From Ignavibacteriota bacterium (GTDB lineage: Bacteria > Bacteroidota > Ignavibacteria > Ignavibacteriales > Melioribacteraceae): DNA of 57,338 bases. A model generated the notes under the pieces. It had not been told where the DNA came from. It was given only the letters and a program-made list of their open reading frames with translations, and did no database searches. The stretch spans positions 1 through 57,338 of the forward strand of contig JABFGH010000031.1 in assembly GCA_013112585.1 (NCBI GenBank), in the 5' to 3' direction. Positions 69 through 44,384 of this stretch are shown here, one piece after another; position 1 is the stretch's first letter, and every line of letters starts with the position of its first letter. A program made the position numbers and the translations under genes.

Positions 69-2120
69 ATGGATGACAAAATGGAACATCACGATAATAG
101 TCATAAACATGGTCACCAAAATCATAAGCATGATGACCATGAAAATCATGACCATCACGATCATCATGCACAGATGGTAGAAGATTTCAAAAAGAGATTT
201 TGGATTTCGTTAATTGTAACAATTCCAATTCTCGTTTTGTCACCTCTTATTCAAGAGTTTATCGGCGTAAAAGGTACATTCAATTTTTACGGCGATATGT
301 ACTTACTTTTTGCGCTATCAACATTTATCTATTTCTACGGCGGTTATCCATTTTTAAAAGGTTTTATCGATGAACTAAAAAATAAAGAACCGGGAATGAT
401 GACCCTGATTGCGCTTGCAATATCGGTCGCTTACTTTTATAGCGGTGCAGTAGTCTTTGGAGTTAAGGGAGATGCATTTTTCTGGGAGCTTGCAACTCTT
501 ATAGATATTATGCTTTTGGGGCATTGGATTGAAATGCGTTCAGTAATGGGTGCATCCCGTGCTTTGGAGGAATTGGCAAAACTAATGCCGGATGAAGCTC
601 ACTTAATTCAAGACGACGGTAGTACAATAGATGTGGCGGTGAGTGAATTAAATCATGAAGATATAATTCTGATTAAACCGGGAGAAAAAGTTCCGGCTGA
701 TGGAAGAATTATTGAAGGCACAACTTCTATTAACGAAGCAATGATGACAGGGGAATCGAAACCCGTATCGAAAGGTGAAGGGGATGAAGTAATCGGCGGG
801 TCAATTAATGGTGAAGGCTCGTTAAAAATAGTTGTAGAAAAAACCGGTGATGAGACTTTTCTTTCTCAAGTTGTTAAGATGGTAAGGGAAGCGCAGGAGA
901 GTAAATCGAAAACCCAGAACCTTGCTAACAAAGCTGCCTTCTGGTTAACAATTGCGGCAATATCAGCCGGAGCGATTACAATGTTTGCATGGTTAACGTT
1001 TACCGGACAGAGTTTTAATTTTGCATTAACAAGAACTGTTACCGTTATGGTTATTACATGTCCTCATGCACTGGGTTTGGCAATACCGCTTGTGGTTGCA
1101 GTTTCAACGGCGCTTTCAGCCAAGCATGGCTTGCTGATTAGAAATAGAACTGCATTTGAAAACGCAAGAAATATTCAAGCAATTGTTTTTGATAAAACCG
1201 GAACGCTTACCAAAGGTGAATTCGGCATAACCGACACAATTATTTTTGATGATACAGTTGATAAGAATGAAGCCTTAAAATTAACCGCAACTGTTGAATC
1301 GGAATCCGAACATCCTATTGCCGCTGGAATTGTTAAATCATTTTCTGAAGAAACTGACGGTAAAAAGTATGAATTGAAAGATTTCAATTCTATGCCCGGA
1401 AAGGGAATAGAAGGAAATGTGAACGGAAAAAATATAAAGGTTGTAAGTCCGGGATACCTTTCAGAAAATAATATTACGATTTCTGAAAATGAAAAAATTG
1501 ATAAACTTTCAGGTGAAGGTAAAACAGTTGTATTTCTTTTAGTAGATGAAAAACTTACTGCGGCATTTGCACTGGCAGATATTATCCGCGAGGATTCGAA
1601 AGAAGCAATAAAACAATTGAAAAAGCTTGGAATAAAACCAATGATGCTCACCGGAGATAATAAGAAAGTAGCTAAATGGGTCGCAGAGGAACTTGGACTT
1701 GATGATTATTTTGCGGAAGTGCTGCCCGATAAAAAAGCTGAAAAAATTAAAGTGGTACAAAGCCGCGGAATGGTAGTTGCTATGACAGGTGACGGAGTAA
1801 ATGACGCCCCTGCCCTTGCGCAGGCGGATGTTGGCATTGCTATCGGTGCGGGAACTGATGTGGCAGTTGAAACAGCAGATATAATTTTAGTTAAAAGTAA
1901 TCCTAAAGATGTTGTTTCACTTATAAAGTTTGCGAAAGCCACTTACAAAAAAATGATTCAAAATTTAATTTGGGCAACCGGTTATAATGTGATTGCAATT
2001 CCCCTTGCGGCAGGTGTTTTATTTACTTACGGTATAGCTTTAAGTCCCGCAATTGGAGCTGTTTTAATGTCAGCCAGTACGGTGATAGTTGCAATAAATG
2101 CAAAATTATTAAAGGTATAA
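69..2120 (+). CDS. copB: CopB-type copper-translocating P1B ATPase
   Basis: This 683-residue inner-membrane pump should export copper using ATP. The N-terminus (residues 6-34) is very rich in His, Asp and Asn and has no CxxC metal-binding domain. The ion-binding motif in the transmembrane core is CPH at about 331-333, which marks the CopB branch rather than the CPC of CopA. Other P-type landmarks are TGES (about 227), DKTGT with the phosphorylated Asp (about 375), SEHP (about 412) and GDGVNDAP (about 573). About eight membrane segments are visible. A weak AAAGGAAA ribosome site precedes ATG 69. It lies between a multicopper oxidase tail and a Cys-rich periplasmic protein, so the unit is a copper-resistance operon. 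Cu(I), Cu(II) or Ag specificity cannot be settled from sequence. Confidence 0.93.
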   Translation: MDDKMEHHDNSHKHGHQNHKHDDHENHDHHDHHAQMVEDFKKRFWISLIVTIPILVLSPLIQEFIGVKGTFNFYGDMYLLFALSTFIYFYGGYPFLKGFIDELKNKEPGMMTLIALAISVAYFYSGAVVFGVKGDAFFWELATLIDIMLLGHWIEMRSVMGASRALEELAKLMPDEAHLIQDDGSTIDVAVSELNHEDIILIKPGEKVPADGRIIEGTTSINEAMMTGESKPVSKGEGDEVIGGSINGEGSLKIVVEKTGDETFLSQVVKMVREAQESKSKTQNLANKAAFWLTIAAISAGAITMFAWLTFTGQSFNFALTRTVTVMVITCPHALGLAIPLVVAVSTALSAKHGLLIRNRTAFENARNIQAIVFDKTGTLTKGEFGITDTIIFDDTVDKNEALKLTATVESESEHPIAAGIVKSFSEETDGKKYELKDFNSMPGKGIEGNVNGKNIKVVSPGYLSENNITISENEKIDKLSGEGKTVVFLLVDEKLTAAFALADIIREDSKEAIKQLKKLGIKPMMLTGDNKKVAKWVAEELGLDDYFAEVLPDKKAEKIKVVQSRGMVVAMTGDGVNDAPALAQADVGIAIGAGTDVAVETADIILVKSNPKDVVSLIKFAKATYKKMIQNLIWATGYNVIAIPLAAGVLFTYGIALSPAIGAVLMSASTVIVAINAKLLKV

Positions 2121-9147: not shown

Positions 9148-10434
9148 ATGAGTTCAGGTGATTTCAATGCATTTGAAATGGCTCAAGCGCAGTTTGACAA
9201 AGTTGCCGAATTATTAAATTTAGATAATGGCACGCGCGAAGTTTTAAGAATTCCGTTAAGAGAATATCATTTCAGTATTCCGGTTCACATGGATGATGGG
9301 ACTACAGAAGTATTCCGAGGATTTAGAGTTCAGCATAACGATGCTAAAGGTCCTTGTAAGGGCGGCATCCGCTTTCACCCGCAGGAAACAGTTGACACAG
9401 TTCGTGCACTATCGATGTGGATGACATGGAAGTGTGCTGTGGTAAATATTCCTTTAGGCGGCGGTAAAGGCGGTGTAATTTGCGATCCTCATAACCTAAG
9501 CATGAACGAGCAGCAGCAAATCTGCCGCGGATATGTTCGTCAGATGGCTAAAAATGTTGGTCCGATTAACGATGTACCTGCACCCGATGTTATGACAAGT
9601 GCACAGCATATGCTTTGGATGCTTGATGAATATGAAGTAATCCACGGTTCAAAAAATCCCGGCTTTATAACCGGAAAGCCTGTCGGTATGGGCGGTTCAT
9701 TAGGAAGAAAAGAAGCTACCGGTTACGGTGTAATATATACTGTACGCGAAGCTTTAAAAGAATTAAAAATTGATCCTAAAGATACAACGGCAAGCTTTCA
9801 AGGCTTTGGTAATGTTGCTCAGCACGCTATTGAACTTTATACTCAATTGGGCGGCAAAGTTATTTGTGTTTCTTCATGGGATCAGGAAGATCAAACTTCT
9901 TATTCGTTTAAAAGAGAAACCGGCGTTGACTTACCGGAATTGCTTACAATTACCAATAAGTTCGGCGGTATCGACAAAGCTAAGGCAAAAGAACTTGGAT
10001 ACGAAATACTACCGGGCGATGAATGGCTGGTACAGGAAGTTGATATTTTAGTTCCCGCAGCTTTAGAAAATCAAATTCGCGGCGATAATGCAGAAAAAAT
10101 CAGCCCCAAAGTAAAACTAATTGCCGAAGGAGCAAATGGACCTACTGCTCCGGAAGCTGATGCAATTATTGAAAAGAAAGGTATTTTTTTAGTGCCCGAC
10201 TTTTTAGCTAACGCCGGCGGTGTTACCTGCAGTTATTTTGAGCAAGTACAAAGTAACATGAATTACTTCTGGGAAAAAGATGATGTTCTTAATAGACTTG
10301 ATCTTAAAATGACATCTGCATTTTTAGCTGTAAGTGAACTTGCTAAAAAGAAAAACCTTTACATGAGAGATGCTGCTTATGTAATTGCTATTCAAAGAGT
10401 TGCACAAGCCTGTAAGGATAGAGGCTGGGTGTAA
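9148..10434 (+). CDS. Glu/Leu/Phe/Val dehydrogenase family glutamate dehydrogenase
   Basis: This 428-residue enzyme interconverts glutamate with 2-oxoglutarate and ammonium. Substrate-binding and catalytic residues are visible: K71 in GPCKGGIRFHP, K107 in PLGGGKGGV, and D147 in DVPAPDVM. The nucleotide fold has GFGNVA at 219-224. Its length and DVPAPDV motif put it in the clostridial/archaeal-type hexameric group, often NAD-linked, unlike the GdhA-type enzyme at 43023. GAGG lies 6 bp before ATG 9148. A strong terminator follows, and 110 bp further on come two PPDK_N-domain genes in the same direction. The same order, glutamate dehydrogenase then PPDK_N protein, recurs at 44384-39666. Confidence 0.93.
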   Translation: MSSGDFNAFEMAQAQFDKVAELLNLDNGTREVLRIPLREYHFSIPVHMDDGTTEVFRGFRVQHNDAKGPCKGGIRFHPQETVDTVRALSMWMTWKCAVVNIPLGGGKGGVICDPHNLSMNEQQQICRGYVRQMAKNVGPINDVPAPDVMTSAQHMLWMLDEYEVIHGSKNPGFITGKPVGMGGSLGRKEATGYGVIYTVREALKELKIDPKDTTASFQGFGNVAQHAIELYTQLGGKVICVSSWDQEDQTSYSFKRETGVDLPELLTITNKFGGIDKAKAKELGYEILPGDEWLVQEVDILVPAALENQIRGDNAEKISPKVKLIAEGANGPTAPEADAIIEKKGIFLVPDFLANAGGVTCSYFEQVQSNMNYFWEKDDVLNRLDLKMTSAFLAVSELAKKKNLYMRDAAYVIAIQRVAQACKDRGWV

Positions 10435-10448
10435 CACTATTTTTTTTA

Positions 10449-10488
10449 AAGACGCAAAAACTCAATCGTTTTTGCGTCTTATTTTTTT
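10449..10488 (+). terminator. Terminator after glutamate dehydrogenase
   Basis: Perfect 12-bp stem AAGACGCAAAAA (10449-10460) with TTTTTGCGTCTT (10469-10480), 8-nt loop, then A and a run of seven T. Confidence 0.9.
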
Positions 10489-10541: not shown

Positions 10542-12284
10542 ATGGATAAATCATATATGTCAAATAACACTTTTAATAAATTTGATAGTACATTAGTTGA
10601 ATCAAGTGAAGACTTTATCGTAATTGGTGAAGGTTCAATGGGTGGTAAAGCCGAAGGATTAGCTTTTTATAAAAACATAATTGATAAGCAAATTGATAAA
10701 ACAAAATATCCCGAAATTGATATTTCCATTCCAAAATTAATTGTATTAAAAACCGGGGTATTTGAAAAGTTTATGGAACTCAATAAACTTTATTTGCTTG
10801 CTAATTCCGATGAATCTGATGAAAAAATTGCGGCGGAATTTCAGAAGGCAGCATTGCCCGAAGATATTCTTGATAAACTAAAAGACCACATCGTAAAAAT
10901 GCACACTCCCCTTGCAATCCGTTCTTCGAGCATGCGCGAAGGAGCAAAATTTGCACCTTTTGCTGGAGTGTATGCAACTAAGATGATTCCCAACAATCAA
11001 AACTCTGCCGAAGACCGGTTGAATAGTTTAACTTCTGCAATAAAATTTGTTTATGCCTCAACTTTTTTTAAAGCAGCAAAGGATTATTTGACGGTTACAA
11101 AATCCCCCACAGAACATGAGAAGATGGCAGTAATTATTCAAGAGGTGATGGGAAGTAAATACCAAAATAGATTCTACCCGAAATTTTCCGGCGTTGCACG
11201 TTCTTATAATTACTACCCTGTAAATGAAACCAAGCCGGAAGAAGGAGTTGTAAATTTAGCTCTGGGATTAGGGAAACAGATTGTTGATGGAGGGCTAACG
11301 TGGGTTTACTCTCCAACACGTCCAAAAGCTGCACCGCCATTTTCAAATAACGATGATCTTAGAGATAATACACAGCGTAAATTTTGGTCTATTGGAATGG
11401 AGCATAAAAACAGCAATAATCCAACAGATGAAGATGAACATCTTATTGAATCGGAGATAGACATTGCTGAAACTGACGGCTCCTTAGAACTGATTGCTTC
11501 AACTTATTCAAATGAATCGAACAGGCTGGTATTGGGAATTAACGCAGAAGGACCTCGAGTGTTAAACTTTGGAATGCTGCTGCAGTTTAGTGAGTTTAAT
11601 TTTAATAATTTAATTTTGGACCTTCTTAAAGTTTCTGAACAGGCTTTTGAAAGTCCTGTAGAAATTGAATTTGCAGTTACTCCTGCTGAAGATAAAAAAA
11701 TAGAATTTGGTTTTCTTCAGGTACACCCAATGGTTGTTACATCCGAAGAGGTAAGTATAAACGAGGATGAACTAACTTCAGATTCAGCAATTGTATCATC
11801 AAACAAAGTTTTGGGCAACGGAACAAGAAATGATATTTACGACATTGTATTTTTAAAACCGGAAAATTTTCATAAAGCATATACCAGAAGAATTGCGTTA
11901 GAACTGGAGGGTCTTAATCATAGACTGATATTGGATGAAATTCCTTACGTTCTAATCGGATTCGGAAGATGGGGCAGCTCTGACCCATGGCTGGGTATAC
12001 CCGCAAAGTGGAATCAAATTTCGGGTGCGCGGGTAATTGTTGAATCAACCTTACCCGATATGAATGTTGAACTTAGTCAAGGCTCTCATTTTTTTCATAA
12101 TCTTACTAGTTTTAACGTAAGTTATTTTTCTGTTCATCACCAATTAAATAGTAAAATAAATTGGGAATGGTTAAACGATCAGAAACTGATTAAAGAAACA
12201 AATTTTATAAAGCATGTTAGAATTGATAAACCTTTAAACATAAAGGTCGACGGTAAAACTAGCCAAGGAGTAATTTTAAAATGA
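10542..12284 (+). CDS. Stand-alone PPDK_N (ATP-grasp) protein with GRWGS/HFF C-terminal region
   Basis: This 580-residue protein keeps the nucleotide-binding ATP-grasp part of pyruvate phosphate dikinase and PEP synthase but no phosphohistidine swivel domain and no PEP/pyruvate barrel. Visible dikinase landmarks: glycine loop GSMGGKAEGL (31-40), PLAIRSSSMREG (123-134), AVIIQEVMG (about 195) and the metal/nucleotide strand VEIEFAV. The closing LQxR motif reads LQVHP, with His for Arg. The last 140 residues instead carry GFGRWGSSDPWLGIP (about 472) and SQGSHFFHNLTS (about 512), shared with the proteins at 12281 and 39666. Its stop overlaps the next start by 4 bp (ATGA), so the pair is translationally coupled. 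Reaction unknown; a phosphotransfer or ATP-dependent ligation is plausible. ATG 10557 is a possible later start. Confidence 0.82.
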   Translation: MDKSYMSNNTFNKFDSTLVESSEDFIVIGEGSMGGKAEGLAFYKNIIDKQIDKTKYPEIDISIPKLIVLKTGVFEKFMELNKLYLLANSDESDEKIAAEFQKAALPEDILDKLKDHIVKMHTPLAIRSSSMREGAKFAPFAGVYATKMIPNNQNSAEDRLNSLTSAIKFVYASTFFKAAKDYLTVTKSPTEHEKMAVIIQEVMGSKYQNRFYPKFSGVARSYNYYPVNETKPEEGVVNLALGLGKQIVDGGLTWVYSPTRPKAAPPFSNNDDLRDNTQRKFWSIGMEHKNSNNPTDEDEHLIESEIDIAETDGSLELIASTYSNESNRLVLGINAEGPRVLNFGMLLQFSEFNFNNLILDLLKVSEQAFESPVEIEFAVTPAEDKKIEFGFLQVHPMVVTSEEVSINEDELTSDSAIVSSNKVLGNGTRNDIYDIVFLKPENFHKAYTRRIALELEGLNHRLILDEIPYVLIGFGRWGSSDPWLGIPAKWNQISGARVIVESTLPDMNVELSQGSHFFHNLTSFNVSYFSVHHQLNSKINWEWLNDQKLIKETNFIKHVRIDKPLNIKVDGKTSQGVILK

Positions 12285-15200
12285 CCACAGATAATAGATC
12301 AATAAACCTTTTAGTTTATGAACTTCAGGAACGTGCTAAAGAACTTACTTGTATATATAAAATTGAAGAACTATTAACCAATCAGGACAAACCGATTGAA
12401 GATGTTTTTAGTAAAGTTATTGAAGCAATTCCTCCCGGCTGGCAGTTCCCAGAAATTACCGAAGCTAAATTAACCTACAATGAAAAAACATACCGCACGA
12501 AAAAATTTATGAACACCCCTTGGTTATTAGAGGAAAACATAAAAGTGCAGGATAAGATTGTCGGCAAGGTTTCAGTTTGCTATGTAACTGAAAAACCCTA
12601 TATAGATTTTGGACCCTTTCTAAAAGAAGAGCAAAAATTACTGCGTACAATTGCTGATAGATTAGCGCATTATATTCTTCATAGAAATCTGCAGACAATA
12701 TTTAAAAAGATACACAACGGAGAAGATAAAGGTGCTGATTTTATTGGTGATTGGCGAATTGTTTTAGATATGGTTAGAAAAACAGACCCGAATTTATTTA
12801 TGAGTCTGCTGCGTAAACTCCATAATGTGCTCTGCTGGAAAGGTATTGAAGAAGCTGAAGATTTAATGAAAAGTTCAAGCATACTTGAAATGAATTTGGA
12901 AAGCGGAAATGAACCGGATGAAAATAAGCCGCTTAAAAAAGCAAAAATAATTAACTATGATGATTACATAAATACCATAATTAGATTAACAAATAAATTT
13001 TTAAGCTACGATGAAGTTTTAGCAAAAATTCAAAAGTGGATGCAGGAAGATAAATCCAGCGAGTTGGTAAAAGTTGTAGAAACACAAGGAACTTCTCTAA
13101 GTGAAATTGCCGAAGCTATTAGAAAATACTTTCATATTGCGCCGGAAAAATTTGAGTTAACACTGCAGACTGCAAAAGGCTTAAGAGTTTCACTCCTCCG
13201 AAGATTTTTCTCCGATGACCTTACCTTTATTAGTGTTGCAAAGGAATATGTTAAATTAACAGACTTCTATAATCTAATCGATAGAATGATTTTCCCCCCT
13301 TCAAGTCATGGTAAATTAGGGGGCAAAAGTTCGGGAATGTTTTTAGCATCGAACATTTTAAGGAAAGATGAACAAAATGCCGAATTGTTCAAAGATATTA
13401 AAATTCCAAAAACATGGTATATGACCTCGGACGGTATTTTAGCCTTCATGCATTATAATAATCTGGAAGAAGCACTTGAGCAAAAATATAAATCACTTGC
13501 AGAAGTAAAATTAGAATATCCCCACATTGTTCAATCATTTAAAAATTCCCAGCTACCGCCGGAGTTATCAAAAGGGCTTTCAGTTGCGCTTGATGATTTA
13601 GGAGACGGTCCTTTGATTGTACGAAGCTCAAGTTTACTGGAAGACCAGATGGGTGCTGCATTTTCCGGCAAATACAAAAGTTTGTTCCTTGCAAATCAAG
13701 GTTCAAAGCAGGAACGGCTAAATGCATTATCGGATGCAGTAACTGAAGTTTTTGCATCAACTTTTGGACCCGACCCAATTGAATACAGAGCCGAACGCGG
13801 ACTGCTTGATTACCATGAAGAGATGGGAATAATGATTCAGGAAGTTGTAGGAAGACAAATCGGTAAATATTTTCTGCCGGCTTATGCAGGCGTTGCATTT
13901 AGTAATAATGAATTCCGCTGGTCGCCGAGAATAAAACGAGACGATGGTTTGGTGAGAATGGTAGCCGGGCTTGGAACAAGAGCCGTTGACAGAGTTAGTG
14001 ATGATTACCCGATACTTATTGCACCCGGGCAGGCAAATCTCAGGGTTAATGTTACCATTGATGAAACTGTTCGATACTCGCAGAAAAAAATTGATGTAAT
14101 TGACTTGGAAACGAATGAATTTAAAACGATTGATTTTGAAAAAATTATTAAAAAGTACGGTCACCTTTATAAAGGATTAAATAACATTGTATCGACAGTT
14201 GAAGGAAGTATGCTGAGACCGGTAGGATTTGATACAGAATTTGAAGATGAAGACTTTTATATAACATTTGAAGGATTACTTAATAATACAAATTTTGTTA
14301 AGAAACTCCGTACGATGCTTATTACGCTCGAAGATAAAATGAAATGCCCCGTTGATATTGAATTTGCCAGTGATGGCGAATCATTATACCTGCTTCAGTG
14401 CCGCCCGCAATCTCACAGTGAACATCACGAACCGGATATAATTCCGAAAAACCTGCCTAAAGACCAAGTGCTTTTTAGTGCAAATAAATATATATCAAAC
14501 GGACAAGTGCCTAAGCTTTCGCACATTGTGTATGTTGATCCAGATAAATATGCATCATTGCCCGATAAGAAAACAATGCAGGATGTTGGAACAGCAATAG
14601 GCAAACTGAATAAACTTCTACCGAGAAGAAAATTTGTTTTAATGGGACCGGGAAGATGGGGCAGCCGCGGAGATATTAAACTTGGTGTAAGTATTACATA
14701 CTCCGATATTAATAATACTGCTATGCTGATAGAAATTGCAAGAAAGAAAGGAAAATATGTACCTGATCTTTCATTCGGGACTCACTTTTTTCAGGATTTG
14801 GTTGAGTCTTCTATCAGATACTTACCGCTTTACCCCGATGATGAAGGAGTTGTTTTTAATGAAAGATTCTTCCAGATATCCGATAATATATTTCAATACT
14901 TACTTCCGGAATATGCAAACCTGGCAGATACAATTAAAGTTATTGATGTTCCTCAGTCAACCGCAGGCTTGTTTGTTAAAATATTAACTAATGCAGAATT
15001 AGATGAAGCAATTGCAATATTAACAAGCAATGAAAAATTTGATGCAGATGAAAGTCAAAGAATCGGCTACGGGAGCAGCTCTTCCAGTCACCAATGGAAG
15101 TGGCGTATGGATATGGCAAAGAAAATTGCATTTGAAATTGATGCGAAAAAATACGGCATAAAAGGAATGTATATTTTCGGAAGTACTAAGGAACGCACTG

Positions 15201-15457
15201 CCGGACAAGGAAGCGATATTGACTTATTAATACATGATGATGGTGTTTTGGAACAAAGGCAGCAAGCAGAATTATGGCTGGATGGCTGGAGTAAATGTTT
15301 AGCTGAAATGCTATATCTAAATACCGGTTATTCATCCGATGGATTATTGGACTTACATTTTATTACTGATGAGGATATTAAAAATAAAACAAGCTGGGCA
15401 ATTAAAATTAATTCAATGGATAACCAGGCAGAAAAGCTAGATCTAAAAATTAATTAA
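12281..15457 (+). CDS. GAF-like / PPDK_N / nucleotidyltransferase fusion protein
   Basis: This 1058-residue protein has four visible parts. Residues 1-140 look like a coiled lead-in plus GAF-type sensor (IPPGWQFPEI pattern known from GAF kinases). Residues about 340-720 are a PPDK_N ATP-grasp unit with GKLGGKSSG, PLIVRSSSLLED, GIMIQEVVG, VDIEFA and LQCRP, all closer to canonical dikinases than its neighbour. Next comes the shared region with GPGRWGSRGD (about 790) and SFGTHFFQDL (about 830). The C-terminus (about 945-1058) is a Pol-beta-type nucleotidyltransferase: GS(x9)SDIDLLI (about 965-983) and a third acidic site in LDLHF. No phosphohistidine or barrel domain is present. It is coupled to the previous gene by a 4-bp overlap. 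The product may sense a ligand and modify a protein or nucleotide; this is inference. Confidence 0.8.
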   Translation: MTTDNRSINLLVYELQERAKELTCIYKIEELLTNQDKPIEDVFSKVIEAIPPGWQFPEITEAKLTYNEKTYRTKKFMNTPWLLEENIKVQDKIVGKVSVCYVTEKPYIDFGPFLKEEQKLLRTIADRLAHYILHRNLQTIFKKIHNGEDKGADFIGDWRIVLDMVRKTDPNLFMSLLRKLHNVLCWKGIEEAEDLMKSSSILEMNLESGNEPDENKPLKKAKIINYDDYINTIIRLTNKFLSYDEVLAKIQKWMQEDKSSELVKVVETQGTSLSEIAEAIRKYFHIAPEKFELTLQTAKGLRVSLLRRFFSDDLTFISVAKEYVKLTDFYNLIDRMIFPPSSHGKLGGKSSGMFLASNILRKDEQNAELFKDIKIPKTWYMTSDGILAFMHYNNLEEALEQKYKSLAEVKLEYPHIVQSFKNSQLPPELSKGLSVALDDLGDGPLIVRSSSLLEDQMGAAFSGKYKSLFLANQGSKQERLNALSDAVTEVFASTFGPDPIEYRAERGLLDYHEEMGIMIQEVVGRQIGKYFLPAYAGVAFSNNEFRWSPRIKRDDGLVRMVAGLGTRAVDRVSDDYPILIAPGQANLRVNVTIDETVRYSQKKIDVIDLETNEFKTIDFEKIIKKYGHLYKGLNNIVSTVEGSMLRPVGFDTEFEDEDFYITFEGLLNNTNFVKKLRTMLITLEDKMKCPVDIEFASDGESLYLLQCRPQSHSEHHEPDIIPKNLPKDQVLFSANKYISNGQVPKLSHIVYVDPDKYASLPDKKTMQDVGTAIGKLNKLLPRRKFVLMGPGRWGSRGDIKLGVSITYSDINNTAMLIEIARKKGKYVPDLSFGTHFFQDLVESSIRYLPLYPDDEGVVFNERFFQISDNIFQYLLPEYANLADTIKVIDVPQSTAGLFVKILTNAELDEAIAILTSNEKFDADESQRIGYGSSSSSHQWKWRMDMAKKIAFEIDAKKYGIKGMYIFGSTKERTAGQGSDIDLLIHDDGVLEQRQQAELWLDGWSKCLAEMLYLNTGYSSDGLLDLHFITDEDIKNKTSWAIKINSMDNQAEKLDLKIN

Positions 15458-39665: not shown

Positions 39666-42662
39666 TTAATTATTCACTGATGGTTTAATAATTACACCAA
39701 TGCCTTCACTGCCGTTTATTTTAATTATCAAATTTGAATTTAGCATAATATGTTTTGAATACTTTTTGCTTTCTATAATTTTCTGTTTTTTCAGCCAGGC
39801 CCAATCGATAAACCCTTTATCCAAAAAGTTATTAACCGTAAAATAACCAACATTCAACGAGGTTAAATTTTGAAAAAAATGAGTTCCCTGCGAAGGTGTT
39901 ACAATAAAATCTTTAAAGTTCGATTCAACAATAGCTTTTGCCCCTGAAATTTGTTCCCATGTTACAGGTATGCCAAGCCATGGATCGAGCGTACCCCATC
40001 GCCCAACACCAATAAGCAGATATGGCCTTTTACTATTTATCAGTTTAGAATTTAATTGCGATATTTCCGCGGCAACATCCCTGCTTTTTGATCTATCAAA
40101 TTTATCCTTATCAACAAAAATAATATCCTTAATGTCTTCAACAATTCCATTACCTAAAACCTGTTCGCTCGAACAAATCAAATCTCTTTTTTTATGTCGC
40201 GAAATATCCAATCCTTCAAGTTCCTTATTTACAACTAAAGGGCGTATTTGTAAAAGTCCGAATTCTTTAGGCGAGCCTTTGGGAACAGATAGATTTACAG
40301 CAAATTCAATTTCCACCGGAGAGCCCATGCCCCAGCTACCCATCTCGAGTAAAAGTTCTAAAATTTCGGGCAGCGGAAATACATGATACTTTAATATTGA
40401 AGCCATCGTTACAATTCTAACTCCTTGCCGTGATATACCGTCATAAATGATATCATTTTCTTGAGAGTAAGTTGAACCGGTATAATAAAGTGTACCATCC
40501 TTTTCAGATACTGAAAGATCATACTTCTTCAGAAGTTTGTTCACATTAAAGTCTGTATCAAAATCCGATTCTTCTAAATCTAATGCAAAAAATTCTTGCT
40601 GGCTGTAGCGCAGTGTATCATCAATAGTTGCAAATTGTAATAGATGATGAGGATATTTTGGACAAAACCTAACCGCATTACCGCCTTCCACAATTGTTTT
40701 TCCAAAACCTAAAGCTGCCGAAACAATACCATCATTAGCTTTTAGCGGTGCAGTGGGATAAAAATTAAATGACTTTGCTACCCCTGAAAGTTCGGGATAA
40801 AATCTTGTTGCGTGTTTTGCACCTATAGTCTTCTGAATTACCACCGCCATTTTTTCTTCTTCCAATCGGTACGTGGTAACCTTAATATAATCCTTTGCCT
40901 TTTGCCTGAATGTTGAAGCATAGACTGCCTTTATCATGTGTAATAGCTGTTTAAGCCTCTGCTCAATCTCTTCATGGTTGTTGGGTATCATATAAGTATC
41001 ATAAACACCGGCAAAGGGCTGCCCTTGCGAGTCTTCCAATAAACTGGAAGAACGTACGGCAAGAGGTGATTTAATAATCGACAGAAAAACTCTTAGATCA
41101 TCAATTACTCCCTGCGGAAATTTATCAGCATAGATAAATCTATGAAACAGTTCATCATCGTTTTCACTTGTAAGAGCAAAATCTCTTAAATAATTATCAT
41201 CTAAAAATTTATCAAATATATCAGTACCAATAACAATTGTCGGCGGTACAGATATTTCTACACCTTCAAATTTACCTCGAATATCAAAATTACTAAGCAG
41301 GTTATTTACAAACCCTAATCCCCTTGCTTTACCGCCAAGTGAACCGCCGCCTATTCGGGCAAATGTACTGGATGAGTCGAATGATTCTCGATTAAAATCT
41401 AATATTACACCGCGCTTTCTAGAAGTTCTAAACTCACGAATTTCATTTATAATACTATCTCTTAATTCTTTAGTTGAGTCGAAATCATCTACTTTAACCG
41501 GTTTCAGTTTATGAGCAAGCCAAAATTCGGTACGTGCCTTAAGCCAATTAGAGAAATGGTTACGCTCTGCATGATAAATTATACTTCTATCGGGTACTGC
41601 CTTTAATTGTACCTCCAATTGTTTCAAGGTTGATGCTCTTCCCAATTCATCACCTTCAATATCTCTGAATACAAAATCCCCGAAGCTGAAATTGTGCACC
41701 ATAAAATTTCTTAGTTCCTGAAGTAAAGTAGGTGAACCTTTAAGAATAAATGAAGCATCAACAGAATAGGCAGCTTCTTTATTTTTTTCTACTGAAGATT
41801 GTAATAATATCGGAATATCGGGATGTTCCTTTTTAATATTCTGCGCAAGTAATATTCCTGCTTGAGGATTCTGCTCGCCATACATAGAAAAATCTACATC
41901 GCTTATTATTCCAAGAATATAGTTTTCATATTTTTTGTAGTAATCCCATGCTTCTTCGTAAGTAGAGCAAAGAAGTATTTTCGGTCGCGCTCTCATTCTT
42001 AAAAATTTATGAGAGAGATTTATTCCTTCGGAAATTAGGTGCTGGGATTGTTTTAATAATTCCGTATAAATAATTGGAAGATATGAAGAATAAAACCTGA
42101 TGCTGTCTTCAACTAAAATGAGCGACTGCACACCAACGTTCTTTGTATCCGATTCAACATTTATTTTGTCTTCTAAAAATTTTATTATCCCTAATATTAT
42201 TCTGTAGTCGCCTGCCCAGATAAAAATTTTATCAAAAATTGAAATCTCCGGGTGCACCAGCATATCCCCCAGTTCTCTATTATCAAATCCTAATAGAACA
42301 ATAGGAATATCTAACCCCGCCTGCCTTACTTTTTTAGCGAAAGTTAGAGCATGCATATCATCTATATGCTGGGTAGTAATTATTAAATTAAAACTATTTT
42401 CCCTTTCAACTAATTCAAGGGCTTCCTCTCCGCTGCTGCACTGCATTAGTTCGGGCGAGTGACTTAAATTTAATCCCTGGTATTCTCTTCTTATCAATTC
42501 ATATAGCCGCCCGTCTTCTTCAAATATATAGGAATCATATAAACTAGAAACCAAAAGTATATCCTGGATTCTGTAACGCATCAAACTATGGAAGTCTTGA
42601 AATTTTGAGTAGCTGCTCTCTTTAATAACTTCTCGACTGAATTTTAGTTCGTTTGCTCGCAT
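39666..42662 (-). CDS. Dual-receiver / PPDK_N (ATP-grasp) fusion protein
   Basis: This 998-residue protein starts with two receiver-like domains. The first (about 33-165) has Thr where the phospho-Asp should be. The second (about 178-335) has the acidic pair Glu185-Asp186, a phosphorylatable Asp255 in ISDVDF and Lys308, so it could be phosphorylated, though with a long insert. From about 430 comes a PPDK_N ATP-grasp unit: GGGSLGGKARGLG, PLAVRSSSLLED, AVVIQKTIG, VEIEFAV and LQIRP. The last 150 residues carry GVGRWGTLDPWLGIP and SQGTHFFQNLTS, as in the proteins at 10542 and 12281. No swivel or barrel domain follows. It lies downstream of glutamate dehydrogenase gdhA, repeating the order seen at 9148-15457. 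Confidence 0.82.
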   Translation of the reverse strand: MRANELKFSREVIKESSYSKFQDFHSLMRYRIQDILLVSSLYDSYIFEEDGRLYELIRREYQGLNLSHSPELMQCSSGEEALELVERENSFNLIITTQHIDDMHALTFAKKVRQAGLDIPIVLLGFDNRELGDMLVHPEISIFDKIFIWAGDYRIILGIIKFLEDKINVESDTKNVGVQSLILVEDSIRFYSSYLPIIYTELLKQSQHLISEGINLSHKFLRMRARPKILLCSTYEEAWDYYKKYENYILGIISDVDFSMYGEQNPQAGILLAQNIKKEHPDIPILLQSSVEKNKEAAYSVDASFILKGSPTLLQELRNFMVHNFSFGDFVFRDIEGDELGRASTLKQLEVQLKAVPDRSIIYHAERNHFSNWLKARTEFWLAHKLKPVKVDDFDSTKELRDSIINEIREFRTSRKRGVILDFNRESFDSSSTFARIGGGSLGGKARGLGFVNNLLSNFDIRGKFEGVEISVPPTIVIGTDIFDKFLDDNYLRDFALTSENDDELFHRFIYADKFPQGVIDDLRVFLSIIKSPLAVRSSSLLEDSQGQPFAGVYDTYMIPNNHEEIEQRLKQLLHMIKAVYASTFRQKAKDYIKVTTYRLEEEKMAVVIQKTIGAKHATRFYPELSGVAKSFNFYPTAPLKANDGIVSAALGFGKTIVEGGNAVRFCPKYPHHLLQFATIDDTLRYSQQEFFALDLEESDFDTDFNVNKLLKKYDLSVSEKDGTLYYTGSTYSQENDIIYDGISRQGVRIVTMASILKYHVFPLPEILELLLEMGSWGMGSPVEIEFAVNLSVPKGSPKEFGLLQIRPLVVNKELEGLDISRHKKRDLICSSEQVLGNGIVEDIKDIIFVDKDKFDRSKSRDVAAEISQLNSKLINSKRPYLLIGVGRWGTLDPWLGIPVTWEQISGAKAIVESNFKDFIVTPSQGTHFFQNLTSLNVGYFTVNNFLDKGFIDWAWLKKQKIIESKKYSKHIMLNSNLIIKINGSEGIGVIIKPSVNN

Positions 42663-43022: not shown

Positions 43023-44384
43023 TTAAACAATACCCTGATCAATCATAGCATCGGCAACTTTAATAAAACCGCCGATGTTAGCTCCGTTAACATAGTTTCC
43101 GGGGGTTCCATATTTTTCGGCTGTATCAATGCAAGTTTTATGAATTGCTTTCATTATAATCTGAAGCCTGTTATCTACTTCATCTTTCGTCCAATTAAAA
43201 CGCATACTGTTCTGAGCCATTTCCAATCCGGATACCGCAACACCGCCTGCGTTAGCTGCTTTTCCCGGTCCGTAAAGTATTCCTTTCTCAACAAATAAAT
43301 TTACACCCTCCGGTGTAGTAGGCATGTTCGAGCCTTCTGATACAACATATACGCCATTGTTTAATAAGTTTTCGGCGTCTTTAAGGTTTATTTCATTTTG
43401 TGTAGCCGAGGGGAATGCACAATCAGCTTTATGATTCCATAGCGGATTGTATTCTAAATTAGGATCGAGCTGCGTATAAACTGCATCAGGGTATTTTCCC
43501 TGGTACTCTTTAATTCTTCCTCGACGCACATTTTTTAGGTTTATTACAAAAGCCAATTTATCACTGTCAATTCCTGCTTCATCATAAATATAACCGCTGG
43601 AATCTGAAACAGTAAGAACTTTTCCGCCAAGGTTTAATATTTTTTCCGTGGTATATTGAGCAACATTTCCGCTTCCGGAAACAAGGCATTTTTTACCTTC
43701 CAAAGATTCACCTTTTGTTGAAAGCATTTCTGCAGCAAAGTAAACTGCACCGTATCCGGTTGCTTCGGGTCTAATTAAAGAGCCGCCCCAGTTCAATCCC
43801 TTGCCGGTTAAAATTCCGGTAAATTCATTTTTAATTTTTTTATATTGACCGAACAGAAAACCTATTTCACGCCCGCCCACACCAATATCTCCGGCTGGAA
43901 TATCAGTATTTGCACCTATATGACGGTACAGCTCTCTCATAAAACTTTGACAAAAACGCATTACTTCTGAATCACTTTTACCCTTCGGGTCAAAATCGGA
44001 ACCGCCTTTACCGCCGCCCATGGGCAATGTTGTTAAGCTGTTTTTGAATACTTGTTCAAATGCTAAAAATTTTAGTATGCCAAGGTTTACAGATGGGTGA
44101 AACCTTAACCCGCCTTTGTACGGACCAATTGCACTGTTCATTTCAATTCTAAATCCGCGATTTATTTGAACCTTTCCCTGATCGTCTTCCCATGGAACTC
44201 TAAACATTATCACCCGCTCAGGCTCTATTATTCTTTCAAGAATTTTAAATGAACGATACTCCGGATGCCTCTCTAGAACAATTTCTAAGGATTCTGCTAC
44301 TTCTTGTACCGCCTGATGAAATTCCGGCTCGGTTGGATTTTTTGCAATAACATCAGCCATTAAGTTTCTTATAGACTCTGACAT
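43023..44384 (-). CDS. gdhA: NADP-type glutamate dehydrogenase
   Basis: This 453-residue enzyme has the length and motifs of E. coli GdhA: GPYKGGLRFHPSVN (Lys90), LPMGGGKGGSDFDPKGKSD (catalytic Lys126), DIPAGDIGVGGREIG (Asp166) and the nucleotide loop SGSGNVAQ (236-243). It probably assimilates ammonium using NADPH. AAAAGGGG lies about 10 bp before ATG 44384. This is the second glutamate dehydrogenase in the window; the first, at 9148, is of the other subfamily. The next gene on this strand is a PPDK_N protein, reached across a 360-bp repeat tract. Confidence 0.96.
   Translation of the reverse strand: MSESIRNLMADVIAKNPTEPEFHQAVQEVAESLEIVLERHPEYRSFKILERIIEPERVIMFRVPWEDDQGKVQINRGFRIEMNSAIGPYKGGLRFHPSVNLGILKFLAFEQVFKNSLTTLPMGGGKGGSDFDPKGKSDSEVMRFCQSFMRELYRHIGANTDIPAGDIGVGGREIGFLFGQYKKIKNEFTGILTGKGLNWGGSLIRPEATGYGAVYFAAEMLSTKGESLEGKKCLVSGSGNVAQYTTEKILNLGGKVLTVSDSSGYIYDEAGIDSDKLAFVINLKNVRRGRIKEYQGKYPDAVYTQLDPNLEYNPLWNHKADCAFPSATQNEINLKDAENLLNNGVYVVSEGSNMPTTPEGVNLFVEKGILYGPGKAANAGGVAVSGLEMAQNSMRFNWTKDEVDNRLQIIMKAIHKTCIDTAEKYGTPGNYVNGANIGGFIKVADAMIDQGIV

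Follow-up and report, generated by a model that had tools for sequence, protein, structure and literature searches.

A family of divergent two-domain dikinase-like proteins associated with glutamate dehydrogenase genes in an Ignavibacteriota bacterium and in many other bacteria

Background

The 57,338-nucleotide contig JABFGH010000031.1 of an Ignavibacteriota bacterium (assembly GCA_013112585.1), referred to below in its whole length as the window, encodes three proteins, here called A, B and C, that represent a real, widespread and unnamed family in which an ATP-grasp domain of the pyruvate phosphate dikinase (PPDK) type is followed by a conserved C-terminal region. We propose, with a probability of roughly 0.55, that the members of this family are two-domain dikinases which autophosphorylate on an invariant histidine and have been turned into regulators of glutamate dehydrogenase (GDH). 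The genes lie next to, and are inherited together with, genes for GDH, so that they probably provide a switch for nitrogen capture or release. This partner is what looks new: the pairing of family genes with glutamate dehydrogenase was absent from the initial annotation of the window, which had described the three proteins as dikinase nucleotide domains devoid of swivel and barrel and perhaps catalyzing a new reaction.

The charging of a swivel-domain histidine from ATP is the established chemistry of dikinases such as PPDK, phosphoenolpyruvate (PEP) synthase and RPH. Most of the characterized dikinases act on small-molecule substrates or on starch.

Results

Family proteins encoded in the window

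Protein A (580 amino acids; 10542-12284, + strand) is the minimal form of the family, composed of the ATP-grasp domain (10635-11759) and the C-terminal region (11763-12281), a predicted divergent swivel domain, and of nothing more. Protein B (1058 amino acids; 12281-15457, + strand), whose start codon overlaps the stop codon of A in the ATGA at 12281-12284, has its ATP-grasp domain at 13313-14458 and a swivel-like C-terminal region at 14459-15025 (end approximate). Protein C (998 amino acids; 39666-42662, - strand) is encoded outside the interval 10542-15457 on which the initial annotation was centered, and carries two receiver-like domains, an ATP-grasp domain (40209-41342, - strand) and a swivel-like C-terminal domain (39669-40205, - strand). 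The three proteins can be aligned with one another over the entire length of the ATP-grasp and C-terminal parts, and all of them match Pfam PPDK_N above its cut-off (E-values of 7e-34 for A, 2.4e-61 for B and 1.5e-37 for C).

The nucleotide-domain motifs attributed to these proteins were found as described, GGK and RSSS being encoded at 10641 and 10920 in A, 13319 and 13622 in B, and 41336 and 41054 in C. The ATP-grasp domain is intact in all three proteins. The residues K36, R127, E376 and Q393 (A numbering) are identical in 76/76 aligned members, and five canonical sequences of PEP synthase and PPDK have them as well. The LQxxP pattern is also present, as LQVHP in A (11715) and LQCRP in B (14393), with the reservation that A has a histidine (H395) where 71 of the 76 members have arginine. 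With this substitution A might be less active as a kinase than B.

The conserved C-terminal region of approximately 175 residues, common to A, B and C, is marked by the motifs G-x-GRWG[ST] and S-x-G-[ST]-HFF. GRWG is encoded at 11964 in A, at 14651 in B (as GPGRWGS) and at 40004 in C (as GVGRWGT), whereas HFF is encoded at 12087 (SQGSHFF), 14783 (SFGTHFF) and 39881 (SQGTHFF), respectively. The codon of its histidine, the proposed phosphohistidine, occupies 12087-12089 in A, starts at 14783 in B and begins at 39881 in C, the residue being number 516, 835 and 928, respectively. This histidine (H119 in profile numbering) is invariant in 171/171 aligned members, as are R79, E104, S115 and F120 of the profile. 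Of these members 97 were gathered with sequence patterns and 74 through the profile alone; since the patterns themselves included HFF or GRWG, the profile-found members are the fair test of the histidine (74/74), and the 76-member alignment, gathered through the HFF pattern, provides no test of its invariance. The conservation expected of this residue in a wide alignment has thus been confirmed.

No Pfam family was matched by the C-terminal region of the window member searched, and the corresponding regions of 54 members, compared with Pfam at E-values up to 10, gave only five families with one member each. NCBIfam (E 0.01) also leaves the region uncovered, its matches falling in or ahead of the ATP-grasp part, so that the view of a shared but unnamed region holds. 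The same is true of the missing barrel: PEP-barrel families are absent from the Pfam matches (E 0.01) of 22 C-type and 19 B-type proteins. As profiles recognize the family genes only via PPDK_N, these could be mistaken for PEP synthases.

The shared motifs cannot be a matter of chance, which is excluded by the full-length alignment of A, B and C and by relatives across many genomes. A reading of the three proteins as ordinary but truncated PEP synthases was likewise rejected. The same genome has two matches to PF00391, neither of them in the window, one in a complete dikinase of 935 amino acids on contig C3 and the other in a protein of the phosphotransferase system (PTS) type; the window proteins have none.

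Relatives were detected by BLAST with A in 25 of 148 genomes sampled from the phylum to which the window belongs. The C-terminal profile was positive in 103/119 genomes of one order, that to which a Parabacteroides record belongs (taken to be Bacteroidales), and in 37/80 genomes of the phylum represented by an Acidobacteria record. Among named genomes a pattern scan yielded at least 577 confirmed relatives, out of which 80 genome-contig loci were kept; according to the record names as deposited, mostly those of metagenome-assembled genomes, they span Ignavibacteria, Bacteroidota, KSB1, Calditrichaceae, Acidobacteria, Thermoleophilia, Planctomycetota, Bdellovibrionales, Eisenbacteria, Krumholzibacteriia, Gemmatimonadales, Desulfobacteraceae and others.

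Predicted fold of the C-terminal region

The claim that these proteins lack a swivel is probably wrong, the C-terminal region being predicted to have a swivel-like fold. The AlphaFold2 model of whole A had a mean predicted local distance difference test score (pLDDT) of 89.9 and a predicted template modeling score (pTM) of 0.89; for the C-terminal region alone the values were 95.1 and 0.91. The model of whole A resembles RPH 5hv1 (Foldseek E 5.8e-13; VIA-align Z 26.3 over 283 residues at 2.7 Å) and PEP synthase 2ols (VIA-align Z 25.7 over 353 residues at 4.2 Å). The alignments with PEP synthase and PPDK (1dik, 2dik, 1kbl, 1ggo) reach model residue 580, equivalent to chain residue 465 or about 505, and cover 347-353 residues, while the PPDK rows that stop near model residue 400 have about 230 aligned residues.

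When the isolated region was compared by VIA-align, the nine top rows were all swivel domains, with Z values of 5.6-6.8. Five of them are four PPDK chains (379/381..507/508) and the PPDK of T. brucei (406..530), aligned over 116-118 residues with Z 5.6-6.8 (the best PPDK row, 381..508, with Z 6.8 over 117 residues at 3.7 Å). The other four are two chains of RPH (755..865), which scored Z 6.6 and 6.5, and two bacterial pyruvate kinases, matched with Z 6.6 and 6.5 through their extra C-terminal domain, a swivel relative. Lower rows contain aconitase and chaperonin apical domains, presumably other domains of the swiveling type, and also unrelated enzymes.

The region stands directly behind the ATP-grasp domain, in the same place as the swivel in PPDK and PEP synthase. 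In its model the invariant histidine opens the helix 112-120, after the strand 93-99 and before the strand 124-128; the phosphohistidine of PPDK starts the corresponding helix. We conclude that the region is probably a very divergent swiveling beta/beta/alpha domain, an assignment that the models support but do not prove. It is not a standard phosphohistidine domain by sequence, yet the predicted fold makes it improbable that the domain is of a new kind. With a swivel-like fold right after the ATP-grasp domain, the first half-reaction would probably be the ordinary dikinase one on a divergent swivel. The new reaction suggested previously did not find support in these data. Of the two roles that had been offered for the histidine, phosphate acceptor and metal ligand, it is the best candidate for the former and less likely to serve as the latter.

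Linkage of the family to glutamate dehydrogenase

Two GDH genes are present in the window. GDH1 (9148-10434, + strand; Pfam ELFV_dehydrog), of the subfamily paired with the A and B types, is followed by A after a gap of 107 bp; GDH2 (43023-44384, - strand), an NADP-type glutamate dehydrogenase (NCBIfam PRK09414, 752.7 bits, above cut-off), lies on the same strand as C, 360 bp upstream of it. Elsewhere a GDH gene was found no more than 500 bp away at 45 of the 80 genome-contig loci, at 30 of the 40 loci from Acidobacteriota and at 9 of the 20 from Bacteroidales. The only BLAST queries used to detect GDH were the two GDHs of the window, and loci cut by contig ends were scored as misses. The 40 Acidobacteriota stretches, which come from 34 genomes, were hand-picked out of 60 listed places, the 20 Bacteroidales stretches were also hand-picked, and two loci that are apparently close kin (L053 and L054, with the same arrangement and lengths but non-identical proteins) were both retained. 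When all neighbors within 6 kb were clustered, GDH formed the commonest cluster (67/140 loci); the second (33 loci) apparently consists of antisense frames of the same genes, and each of the remaining clusters occurs at 10 of the 140 loci at most.

With flanks of 8 kb a GDH gene was present at 50/80, 31/40 and 11/20 family loci of the three sets versus 0/20 loci of canonical PF00391 proteins (dikinase/PTS). These 20 places were used because a comparison based on short stretches, in which GDH occurred at 0/30 canonical versus 16/29 and 7/34 family loci, is a weak control, the stretches lying mostly within the canonical gene itself.

In a midpoint-rooted tree of the core the B clade (26 sequences) stands apart from A and C (140), 6 of the 172 open reading frames with the domain having been excluded from the type counts for want of a usable core. 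With identity lines that we set at 60% for GDH1 and 52% for GDH2, a GDH1-type gene was found directly upstream on the same strand in 7/9 A types and within 500 bp in 12/26 B types, and a GDH2-type gene within 500 bp in 71/131 C types. The A and B types thus mostly pair with one GDH type and the C types with another.

Co-inheritance was analyzed in the 80 Acidobacteriota genomes as raw counts, in which genomes are not corrected for kinship and shared ancestry inflates significance. A GDH1-type gene, 66-76% identical to that of the window, is present in 18 genomes, all of which carry the family (18/37 family-positive versus 0/43 family-negative genomes). The GDH2 type occurs in 30/37 versus 12/43 and either type in 36/37 versus 12/43 genomes. 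These tables use lines of 66% (GDH1) and 58% (GDH2) identity and genome numbers copied by hand, the GDH2 of genome G359 being a partial match. More distant relatives of GDH1, a control set listed by hand from 40 genomes, with identities of about 35-55% and E-values no higher than 3e-81, showed no enrichment, with 14/37 family-positive and 26/43 family-negative genomes.

Further features of the proteins and loci

The N-terminal part of B, 340 residues ahead of the ATP-grasp domain, appears GAF-like by eye, although GAF was not backed by any Pfam model in the B-type proteins scanned. Behind its swivel-like region B has a nucleotidyltransferase (pol-beta) domain with GSTKERTAGQGSDID at 15083-15304 (+ strand; Polbeta 3.1e-6 and NTP_transf_2 1.7e-5, both above cut-off). 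The first receiver-like domain of C (residues 68-125) matches Pfam Response_reg just below the cut-off, and Response_reg was matched in 21/22 C-type proteins (E 0.01 or better). The second, assigned by eye at 41673-42140 (- strand, limits approximate), contains VEDS and SDVDF together with D255 and K308; this Asp and Lys, expected of receivers, are invariant in 22 members. A weak DUF5752 match (about 342-410 in window C) falls between the receiver-like and ATP-grasp domains and was obtained for 15/22 C-type proteins.

A second form of about 1160 residues, in which a B-like N-terminus (judged by eye) is joined to both C-type receiver-like domains, was seen at four Bacteroidales loci (L191, L197, L201, L204) and at L099 and L109, in each case directly preceding a C type of about 1000 residues. 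In one Bacteroidales genome (L193, 6339-15924) a C-type gene lies between two GDH genes and is convergent with the first of them.

A terminator-like hairpin (10449-10480, + strand), recognized by pattern match only and consisting of a 13-pair stem and a T run, is located between GDH1 and A; partial read-through there may hold GDH in excess over A and B. The A/B-linked GDH1 subfamily has an insertion with W244 in 24/24 and D245 in 23/24 sequences, a gap in 15/15 other GDH1-like sequences, and His154 in 24/24, which are possible interaction or modification sites. No Rfam family reached its gathering score anywhere in the window.

Discussion

The closest precedent for the proposed function is VadK (Rv1127c), a kinase with two domains that derives from PPDK and occurs in mycobacteria and related actinomycetes; it is described in a preprint (PMC12636432), of which there is also an EMBO Rep version (PMC13400623). 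According to the preprint, it phosphorylates itself on His422 in a reaction that requires ATP and Mg and is abolished in H422A, leaves transcription of the methylcitrate genes unaffected and co-precipitates with PrpC and PrpD. The present family resembles VadK in having an ATP-grasp domain and, as similarity of the predicted fold suggests, probably a histidine domain, without a PEP/pyruvate barrel, and in its tie to enzymes of central metabolism, PrpC/PrpD for VadK and GDH, by genomic linkage only, for the family. It differs in that the histidine domain of VadK is described as that of PPDK, whereas the swivel considered here is unrecognizable by sequence and bears GRWG and G[ST]HFF; in its receiver-like, N-terminal and sometimes nucleotidyltransferase modules; in its occurrence, mostly in other phyla; and in its partner. 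With PPDK and PEP synthase the family shares the K, R, E and Q of the ATP-grasp domain and, probably, a swivel-type domain immediately after it, but not the PEP/pyruvate barrel or the GGxT[SC]HAA signature. RPH and the split dikinase HpeHI provide the closest solved relatives of the ATP-grasp domain (5hv1, 9goj) and use the swivel-histidine mechanism; unlike them the family has no drug- or aromatic-binding domain and is linked to GDH, and in RPH the swivel is placed at the far C-terminus (chain 755..865).

We suggest that the ATP-grasp domain would phosphorylate the invariant histidine of the divergent swivel (His516, His835 and His928 in A, B and C, respectively). Given that a third domain for a small-molecule acceptor is lacking, the phosphohistidine form would act on the partner encoded next door, GDH1 in the case of A and B and GDH2 in that of C, and GDH activity would be set either by passing on the phosphate or by phosphorylation-dependent binding. 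The kinase may be gated by its sensor parts, the two receiver-like domains in C and the N-terminal region in B, and the nucleotidyltransferase of B may modify the same target. The missing acceptor domain, GDH as the sole recurrent partner and the precedent of VadK together make phosphohistidine-dependent control of GDH the most likely explanation. Phosphorylation of the histidine, GDH as the target, the direction of control and any role of the nucleotidyltransferase are what we infer from these data.

A number of observations weigh against this proposal. As to the swivel, all Z values of the isolated region are below the caution line of the VIA-align tool (8), and row 10, aconitase X with Z 5.4, is tied with row 9. 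Foldseek with the isolated region gave nothing below E 0.001 (best E 0.086), hhalign against the PPDK/PEP synthase swivels, tried in local and global mode, a probability of 0.2%, the search of 54 members for PEP-utilizers (PF00391) at E-values up to 10 no match, and a profile search of the PDB with the region nothing relevant. In the MAFFT alignment GRWG and not HFF faces GG-x-T-S-H, although the best local hhalign path, insignificant as it is, aligns the SH of HFF with that of the dikinase motif; as the sequence methods are blind here and MAFFT places GRWG at the motif, the register of the histidine relative to PPDK is uncertain. In the ATP site position 395 is Arg in 71/76 and Lys in 4 members, and His in window protein A only. 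As to the partner, the linkage is weaker in Bacteroidales (9/20) and the hairpin parts GDH1 from A. Only a GDH2-type gene is found within 500 bp of 3/26 B types and only a GDH1-type gene within 500 bp of 4/131 C types, and 43/131 C types have no GDH in the retrieved stretch. GDH2 is present in 12/43 family-negative genomes, and one of the 37 family-positive genomes has neither GDH type. The nucleotidyltransferase is confined to a part of the B clade (GS...SDxD in 7/26, a tail long enough for it in 11/26, NTP_transf_2 in 8/19 scanned). Finally, neighborhood and co-inheritance constitute a functional link to GDH and are not evidence of phosphorylation.

It might be argued from the first group of these points (no sequence or Foldseek match for the region, VIA-align Z values below 8 and tied with the rows beneath, GRWG rather than HFF opposite GGxTSH) that the region, instead of being a swivel, has a new fold or forms a site for a metal or a nucleotide, with G[ST]HFF as metal ligand or structural element and the ATP-grasp domain acting as a ligase or a direct kinase. 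We regard this as improbable, as swivel domains fill all of the first nine VIA-align rows, later rows including aconitase and chaperonin apical domains, and as the placement after the ATP-grasp domain and the order of helix and strands fit a swivel. With Z below the caution line, the assignment leans on rank, coverage, position and element order and not on score.

If the swivel is accepted, the acceptor of the phosphate may still be a metabolite near GDH, such as a 2-oxo acid or an amino acid, bound in the own pocket of the divergent swivel, GDH being then a pathway partner and not the target. The dikinases PPDK, PEP synthase, RPH (PMC4844700) and HpeHI (PMC12167813) act on small molecules; the invariant R, E and S beside the histidine could belong to such a site, and GDH, being an enzyme, could be linked through a pathway. 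We nevertheless consider a small-molecule substrate unlikely. No acceptor domain lies behind the swivel, A stopping 62 residues past HFF and the A and C types in general ending about 70-98 residues from where the S-x-G-x-HFF motif starts; the receiver-like domains, and the nucleotidyltransferase that some members have, are typical of signaling proteins; and two GDH types are paired with two subfamilies, yet no other pathway gene recurs (apart from the apparent antisense frames, the next clusters comprise at most 10/140 loci). Alternatively, binding of ATP and phosphorylation of its own histidine could make the protein a sensor of energy state that controls GDH by complex formation, in a PII-like manner, and transfers no phosphate. 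VadK, which autophosphorylates and co-precipitates with PrpC/PrpD, no transfer to them being reported in the passages available (PMC12636432), would suit such a device, as would receiver-like modules in an allosteric protein. This is a sub-case of the explanation preferred here, minus the phosphotransfer, and although the present data separate neither from the other we think it quite unlikely.

Among the open-licence articles of PMC, considered mostly by title and the start of the abstract, no published link between GDH and a dikinase was recognized. The family is present in most of the Bacteroidales genomes (103/119), and in Bacteroides thetaiotaomicron trans-acting gene(s) downstream of gdhA are said to affect GDH activity, as the title of a 1996 report by Baggio and Morrison (J. 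Bacteriol.) has it. The likeness consists in the position near gdhA and, for the family as proposed here, in the effect on GDH.

Conclusions

Taken further, and with somewhat less than even confidence, the data may mean that in many phyla, including most Bacteroidales, GDH is under a dedicated post-translational control exerted by two-domain dikinases whose phosphohistidine swivel is of a new type, with separate forms for two GDH subfamilies and one of them at times combined with a nucleotidyltransferase. Such control would be for GDH what adenylylation is for glutamine synthetase, and the trans-acting gene(s) of Bacteroides could be explained by it. GDH is a main point of nitrogen entry into and exit from cell metabolism. 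If the proposal is true, covalent control of GDH by a system made of dikinase parts would add a regulatory layer, new both for Bacteroidales of the gut and for bacteria of soil and sediment. It would also suggest that regulatory kinases derived from dikinases are a general type, of which VadK would be one instance and the present, far more divergent family another.

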